Assembly: GCA_000378865.1 (NCBI GenBank)
Contig: KB900392.1
Span: 1-39,676, forward strand
DNA from: an actinobacterium SCGC AAA278-I18
Lineage (GTDB): Bacteria; Actinomycetota; Actinomycetes; Nanopelagicales; Nanopelagicaceae
Length of the DNA stretch: 39,676 nt
Direction of reading: 5' to 3'
Positions 355 to 8,052 of the stretch are shown in pieces (within the stretch, counting starts at the first letter, position 1; each line of letters begins with the position of its first letter). The translations under genes were made by a program, and so were the position numbers. The notes below the pieces were generated by a model that saw only the letters and a list, made by a program, of their open reading frames with translations, was not told the DNA's origin and did not search any database.

Positions 355-903
355 TTAGTTACGTCTGACGCTTAGTACGTATCTAGGAGTTCCGCTTTGT
401 TCGGCATCAAATGCGGTTAATGTTGTATTGGCGTAGTAGGCGCTGGCACCTGCAGTTAAATTTGTAGTTGCGGAGTGGAAATAAAAGGTAGTAGGAGTTG
501 CAGTGGATGGGATTGTCCATGAGGCTTGCATCGCTGTGCCACTACCTAGGTAGACGGCCATATTTAAGATTTGATTTCCACAACCTTCAAGAAATCCATT
601 ACCTGGATCGGTCTGGTTAATGCCAGAGATCTCTATTTGAGATATCTTAAATCTATTACTTGAGTTATCCCAGACAGCAGCTCGGCGAATCGTAATACTT
701 TCATCACATGCGGTAGCAGCAAGATCCTCACCACCCCAAAGCGCAGTTGCACCATTTACAGTGATTGTGTTCTCTGGAGCTGCAACAACACCGCGAGCGA
801 GCATGAAGCCAGAGAAGGCGATTACCATTACAACAAAAAATGGTAATTTCTTTTTCCTTTTACTGGTGCTCGCTTCACTTGCTAGATGTTCCGACATTCC
901 CAT
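355..903 (-). CDS. Secreted pilin-like paralogue 2 (182 aa)
   Basis: A Lys/Arg-rich N-terminus (KRKKK) precedes one hydrophobic segment ending GVVAAPEN, a plausible signal-peptidase site. The secreted part is Ser/Thr/Asn-rich and predicted beta-strand. Family landmarks are TACDESI, ISGIN, EGCGNQI, ASWTIPS and a closing hydrophobic strand (YVLSV). The two conserved cysteines could form a disulphide. The start may be ATG 903 or the in-frame ATG 897; TAAGAT six bases before 897 would suit a leaderless mRNA. A 20-bp near-palindrome lies 35 bases upstream (939-958), so this gene and the partial one after it form a separately controlled unit. It resembles TasA/camelysin-type SipW substrates in architecture only; no close family is recognised. 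Confidence 0.8.
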   Translation of the reverse strand: MGMSEHLASEASTSKRKKKLPFFVVMVIAFSGFMLARGVVAAPENTITVNGATALWGGEDLAATACDESITIRRAAVWDNSSNRFKISQIEISGINQTDPGNGFLEGCGNQILNMAVYLGSGTAMQASWTIPSTATPTTFYFHSATTNLTAGASAYYANTTLTAFDAEQSGTPRYVLSVRRN

Positions 904-938
904 ATCTTAACTCAACCTTTAGGGTTCAAATTCTGTTA

Positions 939-958
939 TGTCACCTAAATAGGTGTCA
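939..958. promoter_or_regulatory. Shared operator-like near-palindrome, copy 1
   Basis: TGTCACCTAAATAGGTGTCA. The core CACCTA/TAGGTG is inverted about the centre, and only the third base of each arm and the two central bases break the symmetry. It lies upstream of the paralogue starting at 903. Similar 20-mers occur at 3113-3132, 3746-3765 and 6466-6485. A dimeric DNA-binding protein site is the simplest reading. Confidence 0.65.
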
Positions 959-989
959 GATATCAAAGTTAATTTGTTAAATCAGCAGA

Positions 990-1952
990 TTAATACCGAT
1001 CTCTTGTCGGAGAAAACATCTTTCGTAGCTGCCCAATTGATAGTGAGATCAGCCAGATTCCACCCAGCATCAGTGCAATTGGTATTGGGCTAAGTAATCT
1101 GCCCAACTTAGGAATTGTAAGTATTACCACCCCCTTCACATCTTTGTTTGCCTTAAGACCATAATCTGGTTGGTTGTTGTTATCTCCTTTAATGGTCCAA
1201 CCACCCTGCGCGCTACCACCAATAATTCTGTGGGCGTAGGTGGTCACGGGTGTGCCATCTAGGGCTCGGGCGGTATAGAGGACAATGTCATTAATCTGTG
1301 GCTTTCGATACTTAGTATTTTCAACTAAAACCACATCACCAATTTTTAGTACTGGAAGCATTGAGCCAGAGAGAACAACTCGTAGCTGAAGTACTTGGAA
1401 AGCGATAAGTAATACAAAGACCGCCAGTAGCCCCATTGCCACACTTTCAATCGCCTTAAAGGCCGCCTTTGATCTACCAGCTGATCTACCACTTGATCTA
1501 GCGGGAATTAAATCCTCTTGCTGCCATAGGTTACTTGGCTGCTCTTGATAACTTTGCGATTGTGAGTTATCTATACTCTGCCGGCTTTTAGGCAGAGTTA
1601 ATTTGCGCCGTTGCTGCTTAACAGTTCTGTTAGCAACAGCTGCCGCAACTGGCATTGGTATTTGATATGGGCGGTTATAAACGATCTGATCCTCTTCAAA
1701 CTCCTCTTGGGCAATTGAGGCAAAATCAGGACCTTGAGTGAAGGTGGGAATTAAGGTGACCTCATCTGAGAGGTGAAATAAGGCGCTGCGAACTCGTTGA
1801 TTATTTGAGATGGTTCTAATTAATACTGATTGCTTCTTCCTTGAATCACCTGATGCTTTAGCAGCGGCTGAGTTATCAACCCAGATATCAAGACCTAACT
1901 CAGGACGAGCGCTTACTCCCCATTTACCAGTTGGTTGATCTAGTGGCGCCAC
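990..1952 (-). CDS. SipW-like type I signal peptidase (Ser/His type) with long N-terminal extension
   Basis: Membrane-bound peptidase of family S26, eukaryotic/archaeal/SipW subtype. The catalytic Ser197 lies in SGSMLP just after a transmembrane helix (about 170-192). His241 in YAHRIIG stands where bacterial LepB enzymes have Lys. A KGDNNNQPD box follows at about 255, and a second membrane helix closes the protein (about 288-306). Unusually, about 165 residues precede the first helix: a possible folded segment (about 20-75), then a Gln/Ser/Arg-rich linker. The start appears to be GTG, 20 bases after the upstream paralogue's stop and without a clear ribosome-binding site. SipW-type peptidases process TasA/TapA-like fibre proteins in Bacillus. 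Here six candidate substrates surround the gene. Confidence 0.88.
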   Translation of the reverse strand: MAPLDQPTGKWGVSARPELGLDIWVDNSAAAKASGDSRKKQSVLIRTISNNQRVRSALFHLSDEVTLIPTFTQGPDFASIAQEEFEEDQIVYNRPYQIPMPVAAAVANRTVKQQRRKLTLPKSRQSIDNSQSQSYQEQPSNLWQQEDLIPARSSGRSAGRSKAAFKAIESVAMGLLAVFVLLIAFQVLQLRVVLSGSMLPVLKIGDVVLVENTKYRKPQINDIVLYTARALDGTPVTTYAHRIIGGSAQGGWTIKGDNNNQPDYGLKANKDVKGVVILTIPKLGRLLSPIPIALMLGGIWLISLSIGQLRKMFSPTRDRY

Positions 1953-1972
1953 TTTGCAAGTATAGGTTTTAC

Positions 1973-2458
1973 TTAGTTGATAGAGATAGCGAAGGTGCCA
2001 AGTGTTGCTGGATCACGGGCGGTGAAGGCGGTGGTGGCGTAGTAGGTGGTGCCGCTATTAGCTGAGTTTGTGGCGGCGGCAAATACATAACTGTTATCTA
2101 GGGTGCTGGAGGCGATACTCCAGGAGGCTTGGTAGGCAACCCCACCAATGACTACAGCAAGTTGCATAACCTTATTTCCACAGGCACTTGCTAAGCCATT
2201 TACCCCTGTGATTGAAATAGTTGAGAGCTTATACATTCCAACGGTTGCATCAATTGAGTTTTGAGTTGTAATACTTACATCAGAATCACAAGAAGTGGCT
2301 GTCGTCGCCCCTGAGCCGACTGACAAGCCACTTCCGGTATTAATCGTTATATTCGTTACTGCAAGTACACCCGACACTAAAAAGCAAATCCCTAGCAGAG
2401 CAAGTGTTATAACGGCGGTTAGGCCTTTATAACTCCTGCGGTTTTTTCTTAATAACAT
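1973..2458 (-). CDS. Secreted pilin-like paralogue 3 (161 aa)
   Basis: A basic N-terminus (LRKNRRSYK), then a hydrophobic helix ending SGVLAV and the family core: ITINTG, ATSCDSDVSI, ISITGV, SACGNKVMQLAVV, ASWSIAS, and a closing FAISIN strand. It is closest by eye to the upstream gene (2489-3001), with which it shares CD-DVxI, KVMQLAVV and a Tyr-Tyr pair near the C-terminus. It is the middle gene of a tight three-gene unit (3001 to 990) that ends in the SipW-like peptidase. The ATG lies in the 3' arm of a 9-bp hairpin (2454-2483) and no good ribosome-binding site precedes it, so translation may depend on the upstream gene. Confidence 0.82.
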   Translation of the reverse strand: MLLRKNRRSYKGLTAVITLALLGICFLVSGVLAVTNITINTGSGLSVGSGATTATSCDSDVSITTQNSIDATVGMYKLSTISITGVNGLASACGNKVMQLAVVIGGVAYQASWSIASSTLDNSYVFAAATNSANSGTTYYATTAFTARDPATLGTFAISIN

Positions 2459-2483
2459 AGCGATATTTTACTACCGCTATGTT
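2454..2483 (-). promoter_or_regulatory. Hairpin that buries the start codon of the gene at 2458
   Basis: On the minus strand AACATAGCG, a 12-base loop and CGCTATGTT form a perfect 9-bp stem. The ATG of the downstream gene is inside the 3' arm. There is no U-tract, so it is not a classical terminator. It could limit initiation or mark an RNA-processing site between the first and second genes of the unit. Confidence 0.5.
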
Positions 2484-2488
2484 AAAAA

Positions 2489-3001
2489 TTATGCGATAGA
2501 GAGCGCTACAGTCGTTAGATTTGAAATACTAAATGAGGTTAGAGCAATTGATGAGTAGTAGTAACTCCCAATATTTCTACCGCTATTAGTTGCACCAAAG
2601 CTATAAATATATCCATTACTAGTACTTGCTGCTATTGAACCAAGGGTCCATGAAGCGTTGTAAACACCAGCTGATGTTACAACTGCCAGTTGCATAACTT
2701 TTCTAGTAGTAGCACCGCAACCAAGTCCAGTGTTATTCAATGTTGAGGACAAATCAACACCAGTTACTTCAAATCCAGTTATATTGTAAAGATTTGTAGT
2801 TGTGTCATACGCCTGAGTTGCTGAGATAGCCACATCAGTATCACAAGTAGTAGCTGTTGCATAACCGGCACCAAGTGATAGTGGAGATCCTGAGTTAATT
2901 GAGATAGATGTTGCAGCAACTACGCCACCAATACCCATAACACCAACTAATGCAACAAGAATTAATAATCTCTTCTTGTTCTTATTGGTTCTTTTTTCCA
3001 T
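2489..3001 (-). CDS. Secreted pilin-like paralogue 4 (170 aa)
   Basis: ATG start with a good AAAGGAG site about 10 bases upstream. A basic N-terminus (EKRTNKNKKR) leads into a hydrophobic segment ending GGVVAAT. The secreted core follows the family pattern: ISINSG, TTCDTDVAI, FEVTGVD, GCGATTRKVMQLAVV, NASWTLGS, a Tyr-rich stretch and a terminal TVALSI strand. It heads a unit with the next paralogue (30-base gap) and the SipW-like peptidase, which suits substrates co-expressed with their peptidase. An operator-like palindrome lies 111 bases upstream (3113-3132). The leader between 3002 and 3112 contains possible promoter elements but none I would assign firmly. Confidence 0.82.
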   Translation of the reverse strand: MEKRTNKNKKRLLILVALVGVMGIGGVVAATSISINSGSPLSLGAGYATATTCDTDVAISATQAYDTTTNLYNITGFEVTGVDLSSTLNNTGLGCGATTRKVMQLAVVTSAGVYNASWTLGSIAASTSNGYIYSFGATNSGRNIGSYYYSSIALTSFSISNLTTVALSIA

Positions 3002-3112
3002 TTTAAATTGCTCCTTTAGGGGAATTTGCTATTCGTCGGGAATAACAGATAGGTAAAGTAAAGCATGAGGGTTAGGGATTTAAAAGTCCCAGATTAAGTC
3101 AAAACAGAAATT

Positions 3113-3132
3113 TGTCACCTAATTAGATGACA
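3113..3132. promoter_or_regulatory. Shared operator-like near-palindrome, copy 2
   Basis: TGTCACCTAATTAGATGACA, symmetrical except for the CCT/GAT half-site difference and flanked by TT on the left and AA on the right. It lies between the stop of the gene ending at 3137 and the start at 3001. It matches the copy at 3746-3765 over TTTGTCACCTAAT. Confidence 0.65.
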
Positions 3133-3136
3133 AAAA

Positions 3137-3649
3137 TTAACTACCTGAAATTCCAATCGCAACCTGTTTCATATCCATAATGCCCACTGATGCAAGTGCA
3201 ATTGAGGCGTTGTAGGTGCCAGAGCTTCCACTTAGCACATATGTCCTTAGGTTGCTGGTGCCAAAGGTAAAAGAAATGGTTGAATAATCTGATCTAGTAG
3301 GCAGCGTCCAAGAAGCTGTCTGAGTTATGTTAACGTCATCAATTACCACCAAGCGTAATATCTGTCCGCCGCAGCCAAGGGGTGCGGCCCGTAAATCAAT
3401 TTCTGAAATCACAAAGGTTCCATACCGGTTATATGGATCGGCATAAGGAGCGGCGGTGTACTTGTATCCATCAATACGAATTAAATTATCGCAAGTAGCG
3501 GTATTAGTAGCTCCTGAGCCCATATTTAGTGAGACATTGTTATTAACAGTTATAACCTGTGCTGCTGTAACTCCGCCAAGACCTAATAGCGCTAGGGTTG
3601 CGATAAGTGCAAAACTAAGTTTTCTACTTAGCTTTAACTTAATTGGCAC
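3137..3649 (-). CDS. Secreted pilin-like paralogue 5 (170 aa)
   Basis: GTG start preceded by AAAAGGAG at good spacing. The basic N-terminus (PIKLKLSRK) and hydrophobic helix end GGVTAAQVI. The family core is ITVNNN, TATCDNLIRI, ISEIDL, GCGGQILRLVV, TASWTLPT and a final VAIGISGS strand. It is more divergent than paralogues 3 and 4 and has an inserted Tyr/Pro-rich loop between the two cysteines. It is transcribed divergently from the paralogue at 3813, and the 163-base gap carries one shared operator-like palindrome (3746-3765), so a single bound protein could control both directions. Its product is presumably exported and processed by the nearby peptidase (inference). Confidence 0.8.
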   Translation of the reverse strand: MPIKLKLSRKLSFALIATLALLGLGGVTAAQVITVNNNVSLNMGSGATNTATCDNLIRIDGYKYTAAPYADPYNRYGTFVISEIDLRAAPLGCGGQILRLVVIDDVNITQTASWTLPTRSDYSTISFTFGTSNLRTYVLSGSSGTYNASIALASVGIMDMKQVAIGISGS

Positions 3650-3745
3650 GGGGAAACTCCTTTTAAAATAAGCACTTCAGACCACTCTCAATCAAACCAT
3701 GAGAGTTTGAAAAAAGAAACTCCAGATATTTAAATAAATCACTTT

Positions 3746-3765
3746 TGTCACCTAATCAGGTTACA
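3746..3765. promoter_or_regulatory. Shared operator-like near-palindrome, copy 3
   Basis: TGTCACCTAATCAGGTTACA, inside TTTTGTCACC...GGTTACAAAC. It lies between divergent genes, 47 bases before the ATG at 3813 and 96 bases before the start at 3649. A possible TAATAT -10 box for the plus-strand gene lies about 20 bases before its ATG, which would put the site upstream of that promoter, a position typical for activators (inference). Confidence 0.65.
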
Positions 3766-3812
3766 AACAACATTAGACTAACTCTCTACCTTAAGTTAAT
3801 ATTCACTTTACT

Positions 3813-4436
3813 ATGCAACGGAGACTTCCCCGTCGCAAAGATGTTGCACAAAATGATTCAGCGATGAATTACTTTTTCGACAACTTTGCCGACCATGAAA
3901 TTGCTGAATATGGCTATAACCGTGCGCCAAAGCGATCTAGGATTTCAGCGCGGAATCCTATTGTTTTAGTATTGATTTGGGCAATCTTAAGTTTTACTGG
4001 AGTAGCTGCTGCGGTGGCAATTACCGTTAGAGGAAATAGTGGTTCAGCAGGTGAGGTCAGCTTAGCTGTTGGACATGCACCAACTGTGGCATGTGATACC
4101 CAAAGCGGAGTAAGTACCGACACTATAAGTAGCTGGTCTACCACCTATACCGATTTCACATTACAAAGAGTTGATCTTTCAAATGTTGATTCAACCTGCG
4201 CTGGTAAGACTTTAACCTTAGTTTTATATTTAAATAACTCAACCTCACAATCGCTAACCTGTGCGCTGCCGGCCACAATTGCAGCAAGTGTTAATTACTC
4301 ACTCGCAACCTTTACCTTTGCTACCGCAAGCTTTGCTACCTCATCTGTTTCTCAGTGGCCATGCACAACTCTTGGTTTGATCACAAATCCAATATATATG
4401 GCATCTCTTGCTGGTACTGCGGTGCAGATTCTTTAA
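3813..4436 (+). CDS. Secreted pilin-like paralogue 6, longer and Cys-rich (207 aa)
   Basis: About 48 residues precede the hydrophobic segment. They are Arg-rich at first, then acidic and aromatic (NYFFDNFADHE), followed by a second basic patch. The helix ends TGVAAAVAITV. The family core is recognisable: VACDTQSGV, VDLSNV, STCAGKTLTLVLYL, with additional cysteines in LTCALPA and WPCTTL. It therefore has four cysteines in the exported part against two in most siblings. It is the only member on the plus strand and ends six bases before the convergent membrane-protein gene. A minor, tip or anchoring subunit of an assembly would fit its different length, but that is speculation. Confidence 0.75.
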   Translation: MQRRLPRRKDVAQNDSAMNYFFDNFADHEIAEYGYNRAPKRSRISARNPIVLVLIWAILSFTGVAAAVAITVRGNSGSAGEVSLAVGHAPTVACDTQSGVSTDTISSWSTTYTDFTLQRVDLSNVDSTCAGKTLTLVLYLNNSTSQSLTCALPATIAASVNYSLATFTFATASFATSSVSQWPCTTLGLITNPIYMASLAGTAVQIL

Positions 4437-4442
4437 AAGCTA

Positions 4443-6218
4443 CTACTGCTTCTTATCAAGCAGATCTAGCTTACGGCCTTGTGAGATTAGTTTTTTCTGA
4501 AGATCAAAGTCATTTTGAGTCAGTGCATATATGGATGCGAGAGATATAACATCACGCCGAGCAGGGGCTTGTTCTAGCAATTCATAAACTAGCTTTTTAG
4601 CATTAGGTATATCTGTTTCCTTAAAAGCAACCCTAGTTAGATCAATTTTAGCCTCAAGGCATCTTGGATTTAAGGCCAGCGCCTTTTTCGCGTTCTTTTT
4701 AGTAATAGCCAGCGCCACCTTGTCATCTTTTTTATATGTCATAAGCCCATTTTGGGGGCCAAAGTAGATTAAGCAGGGCAGATAAGGGGAGATTTGGTAG
4801 GTAGGAATAATCTGCTTTGCAGTCTTTGCTAGCCCCAGATCAAACTTAATCTGTGCATAAACAAAGTTACCGGCAATAAATATGCTTAAAGCGGCAACAG
4901 ATGCGACGCCTGCCCGTATCGGTATCTGAATCACCTTGCGCACATTGCTAATAACACCATTGCTATATGCAGCACCTATTGAGAAGCCGGCCAGTGCCCA
5001 AAAGAGGTACTTATGCTGGATGGTGATCGGGCTGATATTTGAGTTTGAAATAAAAATCAGAAAGAAGACACCTAGCCAGTAGAAGGTGGGGCGATGATTT
5101 GGGTACTTATTGTAATTTATATATAGAGATCTAATTAAGATCAAAAGCAAGAAGGTAAAGGCGAACATGGCAAAGATTCCTAAGGTGGCCATGCTTTGGA
5201 TCACTGAGGAGTGGGCATCATTGGTCACTAAAAACTCATTGCTTTTAAAAGAGTAGAGGCTGCGATGTTGGTCGTAGTAGTAGCCGAAATTATCTGGCCC
5301 AACCCCAAAAAATGGCCGGGAGAAAAACATCTTAACCCCACTTAGCCAGAAGGTGGACCTAACTACTACCTGCTCTTCAGTGGTAATAAAAACTAGTGGG
5401 ATCTTAGCTAGTGGAATTACTAACATTGCTTCAATCCACAGAAGTGTTAAAGCGCTGGCGCTAATTGAGAATCTATTTAATGAGAGTGGAAATCTTTTAA
5501 TTTTTGCTCTGAATTGGTAAATGATAAAAAATACAGCAAAAATTAGTAGATCAATATATCCTTGTTTTGGACCTAGCTTATATATTAAAAATAAAGAAAG
5601 GGGTGGCATAATAATAAATAACACCCGATAAGCAATATGCCGCTTACCAACTAGCAACATAATCAATGGCAGAGTTGTTCCAATCCAAGCAGATAGAAAA
5701 TCTATATTTCCTAAGGTGGAACCAAAGCCGCCATCACCTGGTAGCACAATTAATTTAAATTGCTGCAGTAGGCCAAGAAAGTTAACAGTAAAAAATCCCA
5801 TTATAAAATAAGGCAGGTAATGATTAAATCTGTCCATGCCAACTGTGGCAAAGTAAATTGCAATAAGCAGGAGGCTATATAGTGAGATAAGGCCGGTATA
5901 GCGACCAACATCTCCAACCATTGAGCCAATAATATTTCCGCCGGCAACAGTTGAAATTGCAGTTGATAAAAATAAAGCTACCAGTGCTATCCATATTTTT
6001 TTGCTTAGCTTTGGAATCTTATTTTTAATAACTAAATATGCTCCAGCACCAGTTGCTGAGATAGCTAAAGCAACAAATTGAGCATTAGCATTTCGATCAA
6101 ATGACTCTTTAAAAATAAATCTTGGAATACAAGCAATGCTAGTTAAAATAAAGGAGATGCCAATAAATGAAAATCTATTCGCAATAAAATTTTTCACTAC
6201 AGATAAGCTCTTATTCAC
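4443..6218 (-). CDS. O-antigen ligase/polymerase-like membrane protein with C-terminal TPR-like region
   Basis: 591 residues with roughly ten to twelve hydrophobic helices in the first 460. The signature of the Wzy/WaaL superfamily lies near the middle: a large periplasmic-type loop with FFGVGPDNFGYYYDQHR, then TNDAHSSVIQSMATLGI. The C-terminal 110 residues are soluble, with repeated Ala/Leu helices (KKNAKKALALNPRCLEAKIDL) that look like TPR units. This family joins or polymerises lipid-linked glycans, including O-oligosaccharyltransferases that glycosylate pilins. Whether the substrate here is a surface polysaccharide or the neighbouring Ser/Thr-rich secreted proteins cannot be told from sequence. 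No other glycan gene is in view. It is convergent with the gene ending at 4436. Confidence 0.8.
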   Translation of the reverse strand: MNKSLSVVKNFIANRFSFIGISFILTSIACIPRFIFKESFDRNANAQFVALAISATGAGAYLVIKNKIPKLSKKIWIALVALFLSTAISTVAGGNIIGSMVGDVGRYTGLISLYSLLLIAIYFATVGMDRFNHYLPYFIMGFFTVNFLGLLQQFKLIVLPGDGGFGSTLGNIDFLSAWIGTTLPLIMLLVGKRHIAYRVLFIIMPPLSLFLIYKLGPKQGYIDLLIFAVFFIIYQFRAKIKRFPLSLNRFSISASALTLLWIEAMLVIPLAKIPLVFITTEEQVVVRSTFWLSGVKMFFSRPFFGVGPDNFGYYYDQHRSLYSFKSNEFLVTNDAHSSVIQSMATLGIFAMFAFTFLLLILIRSLYINYNKYPNHRPTFYWLGVFFLIFISNSNISPITIQHKYLFWALAGFSIGAAYSNGVISNVRKVIQIPIRAGVASVAALSIFIAGNFVYAQIKFDLGLAKTAKQIIPTYQISPYLPCLIYFGPQNGLMTYKKDDKVALAITKKNAKKALALNPRCLEAKIDLTRVAFKETDIPNAKKLVYELLEQAPARRDVISLASIYALTQNDFDLQKKLISQGRKLDLLDKKQ

Positions 6219-6371
6219 TTATCTCCCATTCAATTTGACTGTGTTACTTAAGTTAATAAAACAATAATTAAGTAAATCATCTTTTAATTAAAATTAATTA
6301 CTCTTATGGTTTATGTCTTCTAAAAATTGATCACACCTGGCCAAAGATGGCATCTGTTTAATAGATATGCT

Positions 6372-6416
6372 GGGTTAACCCCTCACATAAGTATTTCTCG
6401 CATAATGGGTTAACCC
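6372..6416. promoter_or_regulatory. Pair of identical GGGTTAACCC palindromes
   Basis: TGGGTTAACCCCT occurs twice, with its perfect 10-bp palindrome at 6372-6381 and 6407-6416, start to start 35 bases. The pair lies in the 251-base divergent region between the O-antigen-ligase-like gene and the LuxR-type regulator. Two identical symmetric sites suggest a cooperative operator for an unidentified protein. Confidence 0.5.
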
Positions 6417-6465
6417 CTTAATTTTCAGCATTAATCGATAAAAATTTTAAATGCTGTCACACTTT

Positions 6466-6485
6466 TGTCATGTCAATAGGTGTCA
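6466..6485. promoter_or_regulatory. Shared operator-like motif, copy 4, over the regulator's start codon
   Basis: TGTCATGTCAATAGGTGTCA agrees with copy 1 (939-958) at 17 of 20 positions by hand comparison. The right half AATAGGTGTCA is identical to copy 1 over 11 bases. It covers the ATG at 6470. Another TGTCAC half lies at 6455-6460. The position suggests repression of the regulator gene, possibly by its own product. Confidence 0.55.
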
Positions 6486-7159
6486 AAGCTAGTGAGAGCT
6501 CACTCGCTGCTGCCGTAAACAAAAAAGAATTAAAAAAGGTGGTAATAATAAATGATCAACCGCTCTTTCTTGCTGGAATTAAGAGCTATGTTGAAGTAAA
6601 CCTGGTTGGAATTGAAATTGTTTTTGCTGGTAGTTGGTTTGATTATTCAACCTCTAAGATTTCACTAAGTGAAGTATTTGCCATTTTAACCTCACAAAAT
6701 CAAACTGAGAGTGAAATTAATTCTCAAATTTCACACTTTTATGAGATTGAAACTCCTATCTTACTTATGCATGATAAGGATTTAGATTTTTCATTAAATG
6801 AAATACTTAAGTTAGGCCCTTGTGTAGTAGTTGAGAGCCATTGCACACTAGATACTTTTTATACTGCTTGCCTTGAGATTATTGAAAATAATACCAGTTG
6901 GCAAAGTGATGAGATCAAAGAAAAAACTAAAGTAGCAGTGAAGACAAAGTCAACCTTAAGTCCGCGGGAGAAAGAATCTTTAATTCTCTATGCATCCGGT
7001 CTTACTTTAAAAGAGGTAGCAAATAAATTAGAACTGTCTCCCAACTCAGTGGGTAAGTTTATTTCTAGAGGCAAAGATAAGTTAACTAAATCTGGTGCTG
7101 CTGTGGGTTCAAAAACTGGTATTTATATGGAGCTTAAAAAACTTAATTTAATGCGTTAA
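6470..7159 (+). CDS. LuxR/NarL-type regulator with degenerate receiver domain (229 aa)
   Basis: The N-terminal domain (about 23-140) keeps the response-regulator outline (VVIINDQPLFLAGIKSYV at the start; ILLM and CVVVES strands later). It lacks the second acidic residue of the usual DD pair, and the phospho-acceptor strand reads AILTSQ (about 71-76) with no Asp. The C-terminal GerE helix-turn-helix (about 162-205, LSPREKESLILYASGL...ANKLELSPNSVGKF) is intact. It is thus a candidate phosphorylation-independent regulator. No ribosome-binding site precedes the ATG; GTG 6539 would be an alternative but would trim the first strand. A copy of the cluster operator overlaps the start codon. The stop overlaps the convergent gene by four bases. 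Confidence 0.85.
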   Translation: MSIGVKASESSLAAAVNKKELKKVVIINDQPLFLAGIKSYVEVNLVGIEIVFAGSWFDYSTSKISLSEVFAILTSQNQTESEINSQISHFYEIETPILLMHDKDLDFSLNEILKLGPCVVVESHCTLDTFYTACLEIIENNTSWQSDEIKEKTKVAVKTKSTLSPREKESLILYASGLTLKEVANKLELSPNSVGKFISRGKDKLTKSGAAVGSKTGIYMELKKLNLMR

Positions 7160-7956
7160 TTAATTAAGGCGCCAATGTTTTTAATTATTGCGCCAGCAAT
7201 AGGCACTAAGAAAAAGCCTTTACCTGCTATATCTTGAGTTCTAAGTGTAATATTTTTTCCTTCAAGTCCTAGGGTTAATTGATCACCATTTATTGAACCA
7301 GCACCAAAGTAGGTTGTAGTTTGCTCACCTGTTTTTACCTTTACCACCATCACATTTCCGCTAATTACCTCTTTAGTTTTCTTGTAGATCACTAAACTAG
7401 TTGTTGTTGAGCCAAGAAAGGTTCTAGGGCCTTGATCAGGAACAGTCACCGCTAATCCATAAACTTGGAAAATAACACCAATTAAGATAAATACTAAAGC
7501 TGTAAAGCCGACCGTCTTAATCCGCTCAGACCATGGATTTTCAGATTGCTCTGGATCTTGTATAAATGGATCGTTATTAATTGGGTGAAAACCAGTTAAA
7601 TCAGATAATCCAGAGTTGCTATTCTGAGGTGGTAGGTAGCTTTGCTTGCCCACTTGCTGCTCATTAAATCTAACCTCTGGCCGAGGAGTTGGCCTAGGCA
7701 CAGCTCGCACCTGGCTTCGATCACTTTGCCTGCGGGTTAAACCAATCCCCTCTGCGCTAAGCAGAAATCTATTTGCACTCTCATCAGGACGTCCAGTGCC
7801 ATGCCAGGTTGCAATCTCAACCAATGTGCCAGGATCTAACTCGCCAATTGTTATTTGATGCCCCTCAGGTAGTGCAATCTGAGCAGCAAATTGATCTGAA
7901 TTATTTAAAATTGCAGCGGGCTTTGGCTTATCCTCATCGCCCTCTTGGATCTGCAT
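7156..7956 (-). CDS. Catalytically dead signal-peptidase-like membrane protein (266 aa)
   Basis: The layout parallels the SipW-like protein at 990-1952: a soluble N-terminal segment (about 20-72), a Pro/Gln-rich linker, one membrane helix (about 147-172) and an outer beta domain. Hand alignment pairs FILIGVIFQVYGLAV with VLLIAFQVLQLRVVL, NVMVVKVKTGEQTTTYF with DIVLYTARALDGTPVTTYA, and DIAGKGFFLVPIAGAIIKNIG with DVKGVVILTIPKLGRLLSPI. The SGSM serine is absent (TTTSLVIY in that place) and His241 corresponds to Gly218. It should therefore lack protease activity and may hold substrates or partner the active peptidase (inference). ATG 7956 is preferred over GTG 7959 because TAGGAG is better spaced. 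Its soluble N-terminus also resembles the active enzyme's (VEIATWHGTGRP...FLLS against VLIRTISNNQRV...FHLS). Confidence 0.75.
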   Translation of the reverse strand: MQIQEGDEDKPKPAAILNNSDQFAAQIALPEGHQITIGELDPGTLVEIATWHGTGRPDESANRFLLSAEGIGLTRRQSDRSQVRAVPRPTPRPEVRFNEQQVGKQSYLPPQNSNSGLSDLTGFHPINNDPFIQDPEQSENPWSERIKTVGFTALVFILIGVIFQVYGLAVTVPDQGPRTFLGSTTTSLVIYKKTKEVISGNVMVVKVKTGEQTTTYFGAGSINGDQLTLGLEGKNITLRTQDIAGKGFFLVPIAGAIIKNIGALIN

Positions 7957-8052
7957 CACGCTCCTAAGTGTTGATAAAAGTAAATCACACCTTTATCGAC
8001 AGGTAAATCGTAGCGGGAGGGGGGCGATTAATCGAGGCATAACCTCTTTTTG

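Follow-up and report, generated by a model that had tools for sequence, protein, structure and literature searches.

A rare palindrome before surface-protein genes of actinobacterium SCGC AAA278-I18, a probable operator of a small dedicated regulon

In streamlined freshwater actinobacteria, regulation is thought to be reduced and surface proteins are hardly known. At one end of contig KB900392.1 of the actinobacterium SCGC AAA278-I18, a cluster of secreted-protein genes is accompanied by copies of a 20-bp near-palindrome, and this locus raises the question of whether one protein switches these surface genes together, which is probably the case, and which protein that might be. The locus was analyzed within a window comprising the whole stretch of 39,676 nucleotides (39.7 kb), and was compared with the remainder of the source genome (944 kb in 54 contigs, ∼76% complete, G+C content 41%; labeled G000 in comparisons) and with its relatives. 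The reading that we favor, with a probability of roughly 0.6, is that a dimeric NarL/LuxR-type factor uses the palindrome as its operator, most likely an activator site, to control a small dedicated regulon, with the product of the gene at 6470 (hereafter 6470) as the leading candidate for that factor.

The first-pass annotation, made from the letters alone, had described near-palindromes at four places in the window, and all four sequences occur where it located them. The consensus of the window sites is a perfect palindrome of 20 bp, TGTCACCTAATTAGGTGACA, which serves here as the reference. The sites at 939 (TGTCACCTAAATAGGTGTCA), 3113 (TGTCACCTAATTAGATGACA), and 3746 (TGTCACCTAATCAGGTTACA) depart from it by two, one, and two mismatches, with 8, 9, and 8 of 10 pairs complementary, respectively, whereas the site at 6466 (TGTCATGTCAATAGGTGTCA) has five mismatches and only 5 of 10 pairs; the description as a near-palindrome thus holds for the first three, and the fourth consists of one intact half-site, ATAGGTGTCA, and a poor other half, TGTCA. 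The statement that nothing comparable lies elsewhere in the window is borne out by matrix scores of 22.4 to 29.2 bits for the four sites, compared to 11.2 bits for the next best place. A weight matrix was also built from the sites at 939, 3113, and 3746 only; the site at 6466 then scores 18.0 bits, a level expected by chance 0.47 times per genome but 0.0001 times per 250 bp, and is therefore credible only for its location.

Beyond the window, the source genome was scanned by pattern searches, the sole means used beyond three mismatches. Five places in the genome match the palindrome with at most three mismatches: three in the window, one on contig 22 (C22:51398), and one on contig 33 (C33:65585). 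The latter two precede a 528-aa protein (L006 7460–9046) and a 403-aa protein (L007 6270–7481), respectively, and both proteins belong to the secreted family found in the window. A sixth site, TGTTATCTATATAGGTGACA, is located at the extreme end of contig 10 (119–138, minus strand) before an interrupted open reading frame (ORF) that begins MLTFFRFPRKLSKQRLSLLGVLKSNT, resembling the start of the contig 22 protein (MIPLYRHAHKLFKRSGLTLASFKANT), and that represents a truncated family member; a seventh, weaker site occurs at C33:64211 (L007 6212). Individual sites differ from the consensus at one to four positions, and six of these seven good sites precede the secreted family or its operon. With the three-site matrix, the sites on contig 22, at C33:65585, on contig 10, and in a congener (below) score 21.5 to 22.8 bits, a level that 10 Mb of random sequence never attained. 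When the pattern was made fully degenerate, so as to admit every variant known among the sites, it matched 20 places in the genome, among which the seven sites score 22.9 to 30.9 bits and the rest at most 10.2, in keeping with the rarity of the motif. The earlier idea of a small dedicated regulon is thus well supported, since the five closest matches all stand before one secreted family, and the 296 genomes from the taxonomic family, the majority of them without those proteins, contain almost none; this regulon nevertheless extends beyond the locus in the window, with matching sites also in front of family members on contigs 10, 22, and 33. Because the source genome is ∼76% complete and fragmented, additional sites, and regulators other than those described here, may lie in its missing parts.

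Relatives were scanned for the palindrome in a set of 60 genomes and then in the 296 genomes, with the reversed pattern as a control. Outside the source genome, the palindrome was found once each in G007, G164, G116, and G260; because the control matches six genomes, most of these (G164, G116, and G260) are regarded as background. In G007, a congener (85% complete), the spacing between the site and the gene behind it, an orthologue of the contig 22 gene, is unchanged. Between the two genomes, 27 of 100 positions are identical upstream of the palindrome, compared with 16 of 20 within it, 19 of 29 across the spacer, all 6 of the −10 hexamer, and 57 of 60 at the start of the coding sequence, indicating that conservation begins at the palindrome. 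This comparison bears on a reading in which no protein operator is involved and duplication of the genes has carried the palindrome along as a dispersed repeat, a terminator hairpin, or an RNA element. The palindrome could fold as a stem, and all sites but one accompany a single paralogous family, so that shared promoter ancestry could explain them. Even so, this reading is very improbable, given that conservation between the congeners starts at the palindrome, that one site precedes an unrelated ORF, and that the distance from site to −10 is fixed; the terminator or hairpin version was rejected, as no T-run follows the stems.

The arrangement of the promoters suggests how such a site might act. 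A TANNNW hexamer occurs exactly 29 nt after the palindrome in five of nine sites (939, contig 22, contig 10, C33:64211, and G007; P = 1.5e-5, uncorrected for the choice of offset), which is good rather than overwhelming evidence, since the offset was chosen and the contig 22 and G007 genes are orthologues. When the genome was searched for a half-site followed by 28 nt and TTAADAT, the sites at 939 and on contig 22 ranked top (0 mismatches) and the site at 3113 next (1 mismatch), with the contig 10 site among the 3-mismatch matches. A start codon lies within a few bases of the hexamer at 939, on contig 22, on contig 10, and in G007, an arrangement resembling that of leaderless genes, a class known to occur in Actinobacteria. 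With the hexamer placed at −12 to −7, the palindrome would span approximately −61 to −42 with its center at −51, a position that would suit an activator. Two further observations concern these promoters: the contig 22 gene has an additional half-site, TTTAGGTGTAA, downstream of the palindrome and ahead of the −10, near the −35 position (L006 7399–7460), and G007 has a second, weaker copy, AGTAACCTATTCACGTGACA, 67 bp upstream of its main site (L061 8016–8035), with TAATTT at the 29-nt spacing.

The same geometry speaks to the sign of regulation. The palindrome could instead be a repressor operator, keeping the surface genes off, for a factor (e.g., of TetR or GntR type) not seen in the incomplete genome, about a quarter of which is missing, and the coverage of a start codon by the site at 6466 would fit such a role. 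We consider this unlikely, as the sites lie upstream of the −35/−10 region at fixed spacing and with weak −35 sequences, as expected for an activator, and as their core equals a known NarL-family site. In Streptomyces, BldM, an orphan atypical response regulator of the NarL/FixJ family, activates as a homodimer, and its Group I site is TCACcCgnncGgGTGA (PMC4125116). The 16-bp palindrome TCACC-N6-GGTGA is shared between that site and the consensus TGTCACCTAATTAGGTGACA, with identical half-site edges and spacing, and this core match points to a NarL-type dimer as the binder. The inner six bases differ, being A+T here (taatta) and G+C in the BldM site, and the regulon here is tiny and made up of surface proteins. 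A BldM-WhiI heterodimer binds the Group II site TGnnCCGnnCGGGTGA, in which one half is altered (PMC4125116); the site at 6466, with its good and poor halves, and the solitary half-sites of contig 33 are reminiscent of this arrangement, in which a partner regulator would here be hypothetical. A literature search for the exact letters of the motif returned nothing relevant.

Three NarL-type proteins turned up in searches of the source genome: 6470 and one response regulator each on contigs 33 and 50. The contig 50 protein is unlikely to be the dedicated factor, given that it has counterparts across the genus, including in genomes without the motif. In 6470, the GerE domain matches at 28.5 bits, above the cut-off, and the helix-turn-helix part is predicted with confidence by structure modeling. 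A Pfam search found no receiver domain in this protein; in alignment with canonical orthologues, the phospho-accepting Asp is replaced by Thr, the conserved Lys by Glu, and the acidic pair is reduced to N-D, which would make it an aspartate-less atypical response regulator in the nomenclature of PMC12632262. 6470 would in this respect resemble BldM, an activator, as an atypical regulator of NarL type, a likeness of type; its receiver is far more degenerate than that of BldM. In favor of 6470, orthologues of it adjoin the secreted genes in the mirrored clusters of two other genomes. The chance that 6470 encodes the binding factor is, in our estimate, about even, and the link of the sites to this gene is circumstantial, as its own site is the weakest and a second response regulator lies inside another target cluster. 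Upstream of 6470 there are also two exact copies of GGGTTAACCCCT (6372–6383 and 6407–6418), 35 bp apart and with no other exact copy in the genome; GGGTTAGCCCCT is present upstream of the G007 site, and a second regulator may thus act here.

The second response regulator (C33:67043–67720) is canonical, with its kinase encoded behind it, and is the basis of an alternative in which the regulon and operator are the same, the phosphorylated contig 33 protein is the factor, and 6470 modulates it or has another role. This pair lies between secreted-family genes, homologues of both regulator and kinase adjoin secreted-family clusters in other genera, and within the genus no close orthologue of the regulator was found outside the source genome. 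A lone TAGGTGACA half-site (L007 8980–9043), with TATAAAT ∼27 nt downstream, precedes the pair, which may itself belong to the regulon. In contrast, clusters in other genera that carry this regulator show no related half-site, and a complete palindrome is missing upstream of its own gene. The contig 33 regulator as the factor is a possibility that we hold tentatively; the chance left by these two candidates falls to a factor not seen in the genome.

If the favored reading is right, a dimeric NarL/LuxR-type factor would bind the 20-bp palindrome just upstream of a weak −35, centered near −51 from the predicted start, and would aid RNA polymerase at promoters with a TANNNT −10 at a fixed distance, with transcripts starting at or beside the start codon. 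The factor would be the product of 6470, its receiver without a phospho-acceptor, much as in BldM and WhiI, and might also bind its own start region at 6466. The regulon would consist of dispersed, membrane-anchored or secreted, beta-rich surface proteins together with a SipW-like signal peptidase. Of this picture, the sites, their rarity, the family that they accompany, the spacing, and the conservation in G007 are observed, whereas the sign of regulation, the factor, and autoregulation are inferred.

Several observations weigh against this reading. The site at 6466 is the weakest, overlaps the annotated start codon of 6470, and could be a chance match or a repressor site; the site at C33:64211 fronts an ORF (a 95-aa membrane protein) outside the secreted family; and neither the leftward promoter at 3746 nor C33:65585 has a clear −10 at the spacing. 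The claim that a site precedes every secreted-protein unit is correct within the window but fails genome-wide, as two family members at the end of contig 33 are without a full site (none was found for L007 13036–13587, and L007 14172–15041 is cut by the contig end); a third contig 33 family gene, L007 7962–8498, has a half-site. G007 has the site, yet no 6470 orthologue was found in its genome, which is 85% complete. Orthologous clusters, with secreted proteins, a SipW-like peptidase, a Wzy_C protein, and a conserved neighbor, occur in G016, G122, G117, and others, and the palindrome was not found in those of G016 and other genera, including the two (G122 and G117) that keep a 6470 orthologue beside secreted genes in mirrored gene order; a scan of 26 further loci with the palindrome matrix was likewise without a convincing match. 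The refuting observation named in the first-pass annotation, a motif not conserved before orthologous clusters, thus applies in part, since one congener retains the palindrome and the more distant clusters lack it. In G122 (AAATAGGGGTCAACTGAATGGGGTC) and G117 (TGAATGGTGGAC, TGAATGGGGGTC, and TTTATGGGGGTC), divergent intergenic regions hold direct repeats instead, the core of which resembles the window half-site AATAGGTGTCA; a half-site matrix picks up nothing in G117, and its signal in G122 is weak (p = 0.01), so the view of these repeats as related operators is a lead, not a demonstration. Half-site matches in G032 were discounted, as they lie inside coding sequence. Direct repeats of TGAATGGGG(G)TC occur between divergent secreted-protein genes in another genus with a canonical 6470 orthologue (L090 9540–9740 and L091 4480–4700).

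The features of the window are collected in Table 1. The site at 939 serves both the gene that follows it and the truncated one at the contig end.

Table 1. Coordinates of palindromic sites, putative promoter elements, and genes in the window
Feature	Position	Strand	Basis or remark
Target-family gene cut by contig end	9..314	−	Profile match 87.8 bits
Secreted/surface protein of target family	355..903	−	Alignment A1, family profile
Putative −10 (TAAGAT) of S1 promoter	904..909	−	Directly before start codon, leaderless-type; half-site + 28 nt + TTAADAT search, 0 mismatches
S1, palindromic site	939..958	−	Upstream of secreted-protein gene 355–903; palindrome edge to −10, 29 nt; 18/20
SipW/archaeal-type signal peptidase I (Ser-His type), last gene of S2 operon	990..1952	−	TIGR02228, 57.3 bits; PF10502; conserved SM and HR
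Secreted/surface protein of target family	1973..2458	−	Family alignment/profile
Secreted/surface protein of target family	2489..3001	−	Family alignment/profile
Putative −10 (TTAAAT) of S2 promoter	3078..3083	−	Spacing as in S1
S2, palindromic site	3113..3132	−	Upstream of operon 2489–3001, 1973–2458, 990–1952; 19/20
Secreted/surface protein of target family	3137..3649	−	Family alignment/profile
S3, palindromic site	3746..3765	.	Between divergent genes 3137–3649 (−) and 3813–4436 (+); 18/20
Putative −10 (TAATAT) of rightward S3 promoter	3797..3802	+	2 nt further away than in S1
Secreted/surface protein of target family	3813..4436	+	Family alignment/profile
Wzy_C/O-antigen-ligase-like membrane protein	4443..6218	−	PF04932; conserved cluster neighbor in other genera
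S4, weak site	6466..6485	+	One good half-site, covers annotated start codon of regulator gene 6470; 15/20; autoregulation of 6470 possible
Candidate regulator, NarL/LuxR-type DNA-binding domain + degenerate receiver	6470..7159	+	PF00196/PF08281; alignment with canonical orthologues
Conserved neighbor, function not assigned	7156..7959	−	Present in orthologous clusters

The target proteins combine a short head on the cytoplasmic side, a single hydrophobic helix, and a beta-rich exterior part in which two cysteines are conserved, and some carry LamG- or Lcl-like C-terminal stretches that score below or near the family cut-offs. Their common domain has no match among Pfam, NCBIfam, and PDB entries, and no sequence match to the TasA/camelysin models. 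A low-confidence model of the protein encoded at 2489–3001 suggests one helix followed by beta strands; structure predictions with pLDDT of 47.6 and 48.2 were too poor for a fold search. The peptidase at 990–1952 carries SM and HR motifs that are invariant and exceeds the cut-off of TIGR02228, the model for signal peptidase I of the archaeal/ER type; it is related to the Bacillus SipW equivalog but falls outside it (NF046067, 38.5 bits, cut-off 190). As in the tapA-sipW-tasA operon of Bacillus subtilis, a SipW-like peptidase is encoded with small secreted proteins, its presumed substrates, whereas in this genome the genes are spread over several dispersed loci, TasA/camelysin sequence matches are lacking, and the regulator is of another kind.

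A sharply defined operator, common to dispersed surface genes and their own signal peptidase, would amount to a coordinated surface program and could serve as a sequence tag for finding further members; it also suggests that site recognition of the BldM type reaches as far as tiny cells that do not sporulate. The target family is found in 3 of 25 genomes of the genus and in 24 of 151 sampled in the taxonomic family, and this patchiness within the genus suggests a strain-specific trait, which might, speculatively, concern attachment or defense against grazers or phages. A more doubtful scenario concerns the origin of this system: in this lineage, a phosphorylated response regulator in control of the surface-protein cluster would have given up its phosphorylation site and turned into an independent switch resembling BldM. 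Its operators, at first direct repeats like those in the orthologous clusters of G117 and G122, would have been replaced by a palindrome, which then spread as copies of the target genes dispersed; the outcome would be a dedicated regulon in a streamlined plankton genome that has few of them. The Wzy_C protein at 4443–6218 stays with clusters of this kind in different genera, a hint that the secreted proteins are glycosylated.

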